From: Kofleriaceae bacterium
GTDB lineage: Bacteria; Myxococcota_A; Polyangia; Haliangiales; Haliangiaceae
Direction of reading: 5' to 3'
Assembly: GCA_018058095.1 (NCBI GenBank)
Contig: JAGPCO010000056.1
Coordinates: forward strand, 1-45,807
Length of the DNA stretch: 45,807 bases
Shown: positions 23,164 to 25,374 of the stretch, in pieces
Layout of the letters: each line of letters starts with the position of its first letter
How positions within the stretch are numbered: the first letter of the stretch is position 1
Translations under genes and position numbers: made by a program
The notes under the pieces: generated by a model
Database searches by the model: none
Told to the model about the DNA's origin: nothing
The model's input: the letters and a program-made list of their open reading frames with translations, nothing else

Positions 23164-25374
23164 CTACTTCTTCATCGGGTTGGTCGGGCGCGCCTTCTTG
23201 ATGGCGCGGGCCCGCCGGTCCATGCACTGCTTCTCGGACTCGCCCGGGTCGCGCGCGAACACCAGCGGCGTGGCCTGGGCCTGGGCCAGCTCCTCGTCGG
23301 TCAGCCGGCCGCGCTTGTGCATCAGCGACAGGATCCGGGCGATCTTGTCCGTGGTCCACCGGCTCAGCGTGCCCTCGCAGTACTGCTTGTAGCGCTGCTT
23401 GGGCGCCGGCAGGATGGACGAGAAGAACGCCGCCTCGACCGGGCCGAGGTCGCGCGGGTGCTTGCCGAAGTAGTGCTGCGCGGCCGGGCCAATGCCGTAC
23501 AGGCCGGGCCCGTACTCGATGGCGTTGACGTAGATCTCGAGGATGCGGTCCTTCTCGAGCACGTTCTCGATGTGCCAGGTCAGGAACAGCTCTTGCAGCT
23601 TCCGCGCCAGCGTCTTCTCCCGGTACAGCAAGACGTTCTTGACCAGCTGCATGGTGATCGACGACGCGCCGTAGCGGAAGTACCCGGCCTCGAGGTTGCG
23701 GATCAGCGCCGAGCGGAACTCGCGGACGATGAAGCCGCGGTGCTGGTAGAACGCCGAGTCCTCGGTGGTCATGAGGGACCGCACGAGGTACGGCGACACC
23801 TCGCTCAGCGACACGAAGTCCGGGTTGGACGGGCCGACCATGAACGAGATCCAGTTGCCCCGCTCGACCTCGACGAAGTGCTCGAACTCGTGGCGTAGAC
23901 GGCCCGGCCCGTCACCGGGCTCCGCCACGACCTTGCAGCCGCGGATCCCGACCGAGCCGTCGAGGATCGTCGCCGCCAAGTTGGCCCAGTCGATGCCGAG
24001 CTGGAGGTCGGTGGCGAACGTGCCCGTCATGCGGTACCCGGCCAGGTACGGCGCCATCTCGGTCGGGATGGCGGCCAGCACCTGCTGGCACGGCACCGGC
24101 GGGATGACCAGGTGCGCGCTCAGCACCGGCTGGGCCCGCCGGGTGTCGGGCCCGGTCTTGCCGCCGCGCAGCCCGACCTCGCCGGTGATGGCCAGTGGCA
24201 AGCCGCGCGACACCAGGTCGCCGCGCTCGAGGGTGAGGCGGCGCTGGGGCGCGTCGTACACCCCGGCCAGCTCGGCCTCGACGTCGAGGTCGTGCACGGG
24301 TTTGTCGGCCAGCATCGGGTGCCCGACGGTCAGGCCGTGCAGGTGAAACCCGCCGGAGAAGCGGGCCGTGGTCGGCTCGACCTCGACGTGCAGGGCGGCG
24401 TCGACCGAGGTGCGCTGATAGTCGATGAGGGGCGAGTCGCGCAGGATCGGCTCCAGCCGGTCGAGGCTGAAGCGATCCGCGGTCAGGTCGAGCACGCCGG
24501 ACCGGCTGGCCGGGACGACGCGTCCGTTGGCGGTCCACAGCGTGCCCTCGACGCCGCCGTAGCCGCCCGCGAGATCGAGGTCGAACGCGCCAGCCGTGTC
24601 GGCGGCGATGATCGAGCCGGCGATGCCGGTCAGGGCCAGGCGCGGGTACGGGGCGACCTGGCCACCCTCGACGCGGATGACCGGGCTGGCGCCGACCGCG
24701 CGCTCGATGGTCACCGTCGCCGCGCTGGCGGTCGGGCCGATCCCCGAGCTGGCGGCCAGGGTGCGCAGGATGGCGCGGCCGGCGCCATCGGCGCCGACCT
24801 CGATCAGGCCGTCCCCGACCGTGGCCTCGGTGCCGGTCCCTAGGTCCCGGGCCCGCCCGGTCAGGCCGCGTACCACCAGCCGGCTCGGCCGGGTTCCGCG
24901 CCCGCCCGTGCCCGCACCCGCGCCGGCGCGCCGGGCCCGCCACCGCTCGACCATCGCGCTCACGTTGTCGACGCCGGCGGCGTCGCGCACCAGCTCGACG
25001 TGGACCCCGTCAGCGACCACCACACCCAGGCGGGCCACGCCGACCAGCGAGGCCGCGGTGGCGAAGTCGATGTCGACCCGCTCGACCGTCACCACCGGCG
25101 GATGGCTGCCGCCCGGCCCGAGCACGCGCACGTCGCGCAAGACGGCGTGCCCGAGCCGGACCTCGATCGAGCCGACCTCGATCGGCTGGCCAAGGCGGGC
25201 CTCGAGCGCGGCCAGCTTGCGGCTGACGGCGCGCCGGCCGAGCGCCGGGTAGAGGACGTACAGCCCGAGCGCGAGCGCGGTGCCGAGCACGGCGGCGATG
25301 ACGCCCACGACGATGAGCCGCCGCCGCAGGCGACTGACCACCACCGTGCCCATGGGCGCCGGTCGTCCCGACAT
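23164..25374 (-). CDS. AsmA-like domain fused to a monofunctional GT51 peptidoglycan glycosyltransferase
   Basis: 736 aa. One N-terminal membrane helix (about 18-42) anchors a periplasmic beta-rich region (50-480) that reads like AsmA/DUF748 domains, with 'VEVGSIEVRLGHAVLRDVRVLG'-type repeats. The C-terminal third is a glycosyltransferase-51 domain: 'TTEDSAFYQHRGF' with catalytic Glu538, 'GASSITMQLVKN' (569-580), 'RKLQEL' and 'YVNAIEYGPGLYGIGPAAQHYFGK' (615-638). There is no transpeptidase domain. It would polymerise lipid II into glycan strands. The usual GGSTITQQ motif is altered to GASSITMQ. The start lies 7 nt after a TATACC box with no ribosome binding site; Met8 is an alternative. Confidence 0.88.
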   Translation of the reverse strand: MSGRPAPMGTVVVSRLRRRLIVVGVIAAVLGTALALGLYVLYPALGRRAVSRKLAALEARLGQPIEVGSIEVRLGHAVLRDVRVLGPGGSHPPVVTVERVDIDFATAASLVGVARLGVVVADGVHVELVRDAAGVDNVSAMVERWRARRAGAGAGTGGRGTRPSRLVVRGLTGRARDLGTGTEATVGDGLIEVGADGAGRAILRTLAASSGIGPTASAATVTIERAVGASPVIRVEGGQVAPYPRLALTGIAGSIIAADTAGAFDLDLAGGYGGVEGTLWTANGRVVPASRSGVLDLTADRFSLDRLEPILRDSPLIDYQRTSVDAALHVEVEPTTARFSGGFHLHGLTVGHPMLADKPVHDLDVEAELAGVYDAPQRRLTLERGDLVSRGLPLAITGEVGLRGGKTGPDTRRAQPVLSAHLVIPPVPCQQVLAAIPTEMAPYLAGYRMTGTFATDLQLGIDWANLAATILDGSVGIRGCKVVAEPGDGPGRLRHEFEHFVEVERGNWISFMVGPSNPDFVSLSEVSPYLVRSLMTTEDSAFYQHRGFIVREFRSALIRNLEAGYFRYGASSITMQLVKNVLLYREKTLARKLQELFLTWHIENVLEKDRILEIYVNAIEYGPGLYGIGPAAQHYFGKHPRDLGPVEAAFFSSILPAPKQRYKQYCEGTLSRWTTDKIARILSLMHKRGRLTDEELAQAQATPLVFARDPGESEKQCMDRRARAIKKARPTNPMKK

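Follow-up and report, generated by a model that had tools for sequence, protein, structure and literature searches.

An AsmA-like region joined to a GT51 glycosyltransferase in a Kofleriaceae bacterium and across its phylum

The window (the whole stretch of 45,807 nucleotides of Kofleriaceae DNA that was analysed) encodes a protein in which a single N-terminal transmembrane segment is followed by a long beta-rich region of AsmA-superfamily character and then by a complete GT51 glycosyltransferase domain with no transpeptidase. We infer activity on lipid II, control by envelope stress, partnership with a class A PBP and a role for the groove, and put at roughly 0.6 the probability that the protein is a membrane-anchored lipid II polymerase of the MtgA type, regulated by envelope stress, which works with a class A PBP and stands on an AsmA-like groove. 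Lipid-bridge proteins and wall polymerases have been studied as separate systems, and this protein joins both. The usual short anchor is replaced by a long domain resembling those of lipid transfer, which raises the question of access to membrane-bound lipid II. The fusion makes it testable whether an AsmA-type groove can handle lipid II and whether a GT51 polymerase must sit on the membrane. Both halves are known families, and databases clearly hold such proteins under generic names; a name like 'biosynthetic peptidoglycan transglycosylase' can conceal a large lipid-groove domain. Full-text searches of open-licence PMC papers, a partial coverage of the literature, yielded no description of an AsmA-GT51 fusion. 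The gene and the features of its product, in window positions, are the following.

23164..25374 (-): AsmA-GT51 fusion gene, ATG start, 736 aa plus stop (open reading frame and Pfam)
25240..25323 (-): single N-terminal transmembrane segment, residues 18-45 (hydropathy; AlphaFold2 helix 14-61)
23836..25239 (-): AsmA-superfamily (DUF748-type) beta region, residues 46-513 (profiles and AlphaFold2)
24088..24090 (-): Cys429, first of a cysteine pair beside the GT51 domain, present in 60/61 proteins
23935..23937 (-): Cys480, possible disulfide partner of Cys429, present in 60/61 proteins
23248..23832 (-): GT51 domain, about residues 515-709 (profiles, structure alignments and AlphaFold2)
23761..23763 (-): catalytic Glu538 within ED..F..H.G, counterpart of the first catalytic Glu of A. 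aeolicus PBP1A in the alignment
23647..23670 (-): motif GASSITMQ, residues 569-576 (sequence and alignments)
23590..23592 (-): second catalytic Glu595 in the motif RK..E, spaced from Glu538 as in A. aeolicus PBP1A

Pfam places a Transgly match (PF00912) at residues 515-662 (E 2.6e-45) and a DUF748 match (PF05359) at residues 15-148 (E 1.3e-11), the latter with 43.8 bits and thus below the curated cut-off of 50, while AsmA (PF05170) is matched at E 0.15 only. The transpeptidase domain PF00905 was absent from the fusion protein in the Pfam search, so it is not a class A PBP. The AlphaFold2 model of the whole protein (mean pLDDT 91.2, pTM 0.79) has strands across residues 65-513 and a helical GT51 domain after them. 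The earlier note had described an AsmA/DUF748-like part and a complete GT51 domain without a transpeptidase, and the profiles, the confident model and the conservation reported below bear this out. It had also let the AsmA-like region end at residue 480; the region is indeed present before the GT51 domain, but its end lies at about 513, because the strands of the model extend that far.

An alignment of 53 fusion proteins with the window protein included (A2) was compared with the same profiles. Transgly is matched by all 53 proteins and DUF748 by 49 at E up to 0.01 (best 1.1e-19), and matches to YhdP, AsmA and YdbH-like profiles were obtained for 25, 14 and 4 proteins, respectively. A set of 14 E. 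coli proteins plus a shuffled copy of each was searched with a profile of residues 1-516 (A3). The top three of these 28 sequences are YhdP (1.2e-7), AsmA (1.2e-6) and TamB (6e-6); the next match, MrcB (E 0.006), falls at profile positions 8-63, the part with the membrane helix. The profile missed YdbH, an AsmA-like protein of E. coli, in this same search of 14 proteins and shuffles. By its profile relations the region belongs to the AsmA superfamily, with the window protein taken alone remaining under the Pfam cut-off for DUF748. TamB, AsmA, DUF748 and DUF3971 are mutually related according to excerpts of PMC4494059. The protein also has the helix-then-strands layout of the superfamily, with an N-terminal transmembrane segment and then repeated beta strands according to AlphaFold2 and hydropathy, the strands presumably on the periplasmic side.

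Structure prediction, which the earlier note had proposed as a check on this part, gave a confident beta model. With the N-terminal 516 residues modelled alone, AlphaFold2 returned a mean pLDDT of 91.7 and about 25 strands between residues 65 and 513. Along these strands the alternation of polar and apolar residues has a value of 2.14, which exceeds every one of 2000 shuffles (mean 1.36, maximum 2.08). The comparison with solved structures separated less: with the beta part alone as query, TamB (9xdd_B) was matched at Z 8.4 with an rmsd of 4.5 over 163 residues and Vps13 (6cbc_A) at Z 8.2 with an rmsd of 5.3 over 168 residues, both level with unrelated porins, and ApoB-100 stood above them (Z 10.4, rmsd 11.8). 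The whole model matched Vps13 (6cbc_B) at Z 9.8. No solved AsmA or YhdP chain was among the fold-search matches listed, an absence that does not speak against an AsmA fold. Because TamB and Vps13 tie with unrelated porins, the assignment of a groove fold draws on sequence together with the model; the structure matches are consistent with a beta-groove and do not prove one.

Solved GT51 structures align with the C-terminal domain from residue 511-522 onward, with A. aeolicus PBP1A first (E 7e-28), and comparison of the model with S. aureus MGT and with the GT domain of A. aeolicus PBP1A gave Z of about 19-20. Glu538 and Glu595, which we take from the GT51 literature to be the catalytic residues, are spaced by 57 residues as in A. 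aeolicus PBP1A. Both are present in 53/53 proteins of the alignment and in 61/61 of a wider set that includes a Parabacteroides distasonis protein and seven IMG/VR fusions (L135-L141), and no variation is seen at the other key positions of the motifs.

The motif GASSITMQ had been singled out earlier as a deviation from GGSTITQQ. It does differ from the textbook form, but the difference carries no weight, because GASSITMQ is the usual form in these proteins. Among 26 proteins of the ECF-linked type (alignment A1), 25 have GASSITMQ and one has GASSISMQ (L026), and Met is found at position 575 in 57 of the 61 proteins, that of P. distasonis among them. The Ala and the Met are not odd either, since each occurs in known E. 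coli enzymes (GGSTLTMQ in PbpC, GASTISQQ in MtgA and GASTITQQ in MrcA). These counts and precedents rule out the motif as a mark of altered function. It is accordingly very improbable that the GT51 domain is inactive or specific for another glycolipid with the changed motif as the sign of this: the motif departs from GGSTITQQ at three positions, but the two glutamates and the other key motif residues do not vary and the Ala and Met have their E. coli counterparts. A pseudo-enzyme is likewise unlikely, both catalytic Glu being kept throughout.

As judged from its sequence, the domain is of the MtgA type and closer to MtgA than to the class A PBPs. A maximum likelihood tree of 62 GT51 domains placed all 53 fusion domains and E. 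coli MtgA on one side (99/99) and the five class A PBPs of the own genome with MrcA, MrcB and PbpC on the opposite side; the nearness to MtgA is less sure than the split from the PBPs because the MtgA branch is long, and the grouping is no demonstration of a single fusion origin. The NCBIfam models for PBP1A, PbpC and the monofunctional transglycosylase score about equally, all below their cut-offs. Since the score for TIGR02070 (mono_pep_trsgly) is 138 bits and its NCBIfam cut-off of 182.65 is not reached, we describe the domain as MtgA-like in ancestry and outside the TIGR02070 equivalog.

A survey of the architecture, also proposed in the earlier note, found the fusion to be widespread in the phylum and hence no local oddity. 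In a sample of 30 genomes of the family, the own genome included, a full-length orthologue is encoded by 26 and a partial or split one by three; the fusion is absent from the remaining genome (G026, 1770 contigs) as far as it is assembled. At E <= 1e-45 the full-length profile matched 216 of 283 phylum genomes; this count is an upper bound, as a PBP alone may account for a genome that scores close to the threshold. A query limited to the AsmA part gave matches at E <= 1e-10 in 79 of 95 phylum genomes, a number that includes other AsmA-like proteins. When the best loci of 30 phylum genomes were fetched on the AsmA part (one per genome, 11 different families), a GT51 domain was found in the same open frame in all 30. 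The fusion is neither a chance open reading frame nor a misassembly, both ruled out by the identical architecture of independent genomes. Outside the phylum, a protein with DUF748 and Transgly is encoded by P. distasonis (Bacteroidota). Seven of 20 IMG/VR loci carry the AsmA-GT51 fusion, and these contigs are probably cellular DNA filed as viral; one further locus (L142) matches the profile from position 497 on only, and the other 12 encode short proteins of 261-343 aa, mostly GT51.

The fusion gene lies downstream of a conserved group of genes on the same strand, encoding a sigma factor, an anti-sigma-like protein and a secreted protein, whose ends overlap. These genes and their divergent neighbours are:

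25590..26123 (-): 177-aa secreted protein, between the anti-sigma and AsmA-GT51 genes (locus comparison)
26120..26791 (-): anti-sigma-like protein with one transmembrane stretch, a putative role taken from the adjoining sigma gene
26784..27503 (-): ECF (RpoE-type) sigma factor, upstream of the AsmA-GT51 gene (Pfam, NCBIfam and locus comparison)
27717..30794 (+): divergent 1025-aa membrane protein beside the sigma gene (open reading frame, conserved neighbourhood)
30791..32359 (+): divergent TPR / peptidase-MA protein (domain matches, conserved neighbourhood)

We compared 13 family loci outside the window and 14 further loci of this type from other parts of the class. Twelve of the 13 family loci have the sigma gene upstream in the same orientation (at about 3 kb in L048), and the anti-sigma gene is present at 12; at one locus (L038) none of the sigma, anti-sigma and secreted-protein genes stands beside the fusion. 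Of the 14 class loci, 11 have an upstream sigma gene, which in L109 is less similar and lies at a distance of 4.6 kb. A PBP1A-type gene, identified as TIGR02074 by NCBIfam at the one locus scanned, follows downstream on the same strand at four of the 13 loci from the family and at 11 of the 14 from the class. Six weaker-matching class loci (L118-L123) are without an ECF/PBP cluster of this kind; an ECF match some 4.6 kb downstream in L123 is a distant one (28% identity). The own ECF sigma / anti-sigma pair probably controls the fusion gene, and for this reason envelope stress would increase or adjust the level of the polymerase. No NCBIfam match was obtained for the anti-sigma-like protein, and neither Pfam nor NCBIfam matched the 177-aa secreted protein, which is a candidate activator or ligand.

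The genes for the 1025-aa membrane protein and the TPR/peptidase-MA protein are kept with the sigma gene across the class. A GAAC-type ECF promoter upstream of the sigma gene was matched by a regular expression at 2 of 22 loci only. Many loci have a TATAACC motif ahead of the ECF sigma gene (about position 27517 in the window), which may be a conserved promoter element for one or other of the divergent genes. In 392 kb of these loci the 8-mer TATAACCG is found 13 times, and it lies inside the 250-base stretch upstream of the sigma gene in 12 of 22 loci. Searches for tandem repeats, RNA families and tRNAs gave nothing bearing on the fusion. Elsewhere in the window, a 1002-aa open reading frame (17391-20396, plus strand) combines GAF, GGDEF and a Ser/Thr protein kinase, which unites cyclic-di-GMP signalling with kinase signalling in an unusual way, and an 894-aa open reading frame (32376-35060, minus strand) has many RCC1 repeats.

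The own genome (7.57 Mb in 227 contigs, 97% complete) has seven GT51 genes, five of which are bifunctional with PF00905. The remaining two are the window fusion and a 678-aa AsmA-fusion paralogue, 29% identical to the window protein over residues 28-704. As the other five carry PF00905, the only monofunctional GT51 proteins found in this genome are AsmA fusions. The paralogous type has the motif GGSTISQQ in the own genome and is encoded directly after a D-Ala-D-Ala ligase, at less than 50 bases, in 4/4 family loci; the ligase was confirmed by NCBIfam at both loci scanned, 2 of the 4. There is no class A PBP on the window contig. The own PBP1A-type gene, which is the best own-genome match of the downstream PBP gene of the other loci, sits on contig C185.

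These surroundings bear on the idea that the AsmA part is itself a transporter of phospholipid, with the GT51 domain linking wall growth to the supply of outer-membrane lipid, perhaps by sensing how much lipid II is available. The superfamily membership would agree with this, as would the known role of YhdP, TamB and YdbH (excerpts of PMC8593681). However, the neighbours are wall genes (PBP, Ddl) with no recognised lipid-transport genes among them, and YhdP and TamB are each about three times as long as the region. Being so short and ending in an enzyme that acts on inner-membrane lipid, the protein would be unlikely to reach the outer membrane alone, and we rate the idea as unlikely.

The part of the AsmA-like region next to the enzyme stands out. 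Only the P. distasonis protein lacks the Cys429/Cys480 pair among the 61, and conservation is 0.49 in the 90 residues that lead up to the GT51 domain vs 0.36-0.39 in the remaining AsmA part, suggesting a fixed joint. This, and the 177-aa secreted protein encoded between the sigma pair and the fusion at 11 of 13 family loci, would suit an AsmA part that has a structural or regulatory task without touching lipid, comparable to the accessory domains of class A PBPs, and that might dock the 177-aa protein as an activator. The strong polar/apolar alternation along the strands and a profile that belongs to a lipid-groove superfamily speak against it, and we consider it possible at a good deal less than even odds.

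Hydropathy places a transmembrane-like stretch at the N-terminus in 50 of the 53 proteins and elsewhere in one. As the sole such stretch is usually N-terminal, about 470 residues earlier, no membrane anchor adjoins the GT51 domain. The groove itself is suggested to be 6.5-10 nm long when scaled from TamB (17.8-24.6 nm, 1259 aa) and YhdP (26.8 nm, 1266 aa), the lengths in nm being taken from excerpts of PMC11014939. Both the distant anchor and this estimate would agree with a groove that accepts the undecaprenyl chain, either from lipid II or from the growing strand, and hands it on to a GT51 domain kept at a distance from the inner membrane. Grooves of the superfamily carry lipids in YhdP and are proposed to do so in TamB (same excerpts), and GspN, a short AsmA-like member, serves acylated lipoproteins (excerpts of PMC12802150). 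If true, this would be a polymerase with a built-in lipid-transfer bridge, making glycan close to the existing wall. But GT51 enzymes act on membrane-embedded lipid II, loss of the anchor severely affects a class A PBP, PBP2a (excerpts of PMC4632607), and the GT51 domain may simply dip back to the membrane; we find such delivery doubtful and rank it below an AsmA part that makes no lipid contact.

The reading that we prefer remains an MtgA-type polymerase held by an AsmA-like mount. The N-terminal helix would anchor the protein in the inner membrane and leave the remainder periplasmic, with a beta-groove of about 470 residues after the helix and the GT51 domain at the C-terminal end. The GT51 domain would polymerise lipid II into glycan strands, to be cross-linked by a class A PBP (PBP1A type, often encoded adjacent) and other transpeptidases. 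The AsmA-like part is most likely a rigid, lipid-contacting mount that places the GT51 domain relative to the membrane. A groove lying along the membrane or bent back to it would act in this way, whereas an upright groove would lift the GT51 domain off the membrane and would then have to bring the lipid II. The former is simpler, and we rate it higher. Some members of the AsmA superfamily carry phospholipid, and the link between lipid handling and glycan synthesis that the earlier note had suggested is plausible.

Among known systems, MtgA/Mgt (GT51; TIGR02070) is alike in having GT51 alone, with no transpeptidase. In E. coli MtgA a short N-terminal anchor directly precedes the GT51 domain and the protein has 242 aa, whereas the fusion has about 470 AsmA-like residues between anchor and GT51. 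The class A PBPs (PBP1A family, TIGR02074) share the GT51 fold and the catalytic residues and differ in their transpeptidase domain, which the fusion lacks. AsmA, YhdP, TamB and the DUF748 proteins share the N-terminal inner-membrane helix and the repeated beta strands that follow it, but the fusion ends in an enzyme domain and would be too short to span the periplasm. In E. coli K-12, yhdP lies close to the mreBCD wall elongation genes (L131), another link between an AsmA-like protein and a wall neighbourhood. GspN of type II secretion is likewise AsmA-like, and its groove serves a purpose other than moving phospholipid in bulk, which indicates that AsmA-like proteins can serve non-phospholipid cargo; in contrast to the fusion, it serves lipoprotein secretion, and no catalytic domain is reported for it in the excerpts of PMC12802150. 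The P. distasonis 'biosynthetic peptidoglycan transglycosylase' (WP_121956505.1) has the same combination in 652 aa, with DUF748 at E 1.1e-5 and Transgly at E 1.4e-40 and 35% identity over residues 427-695, but belongs to another phylum and is without the 429/480 cysteine pair.
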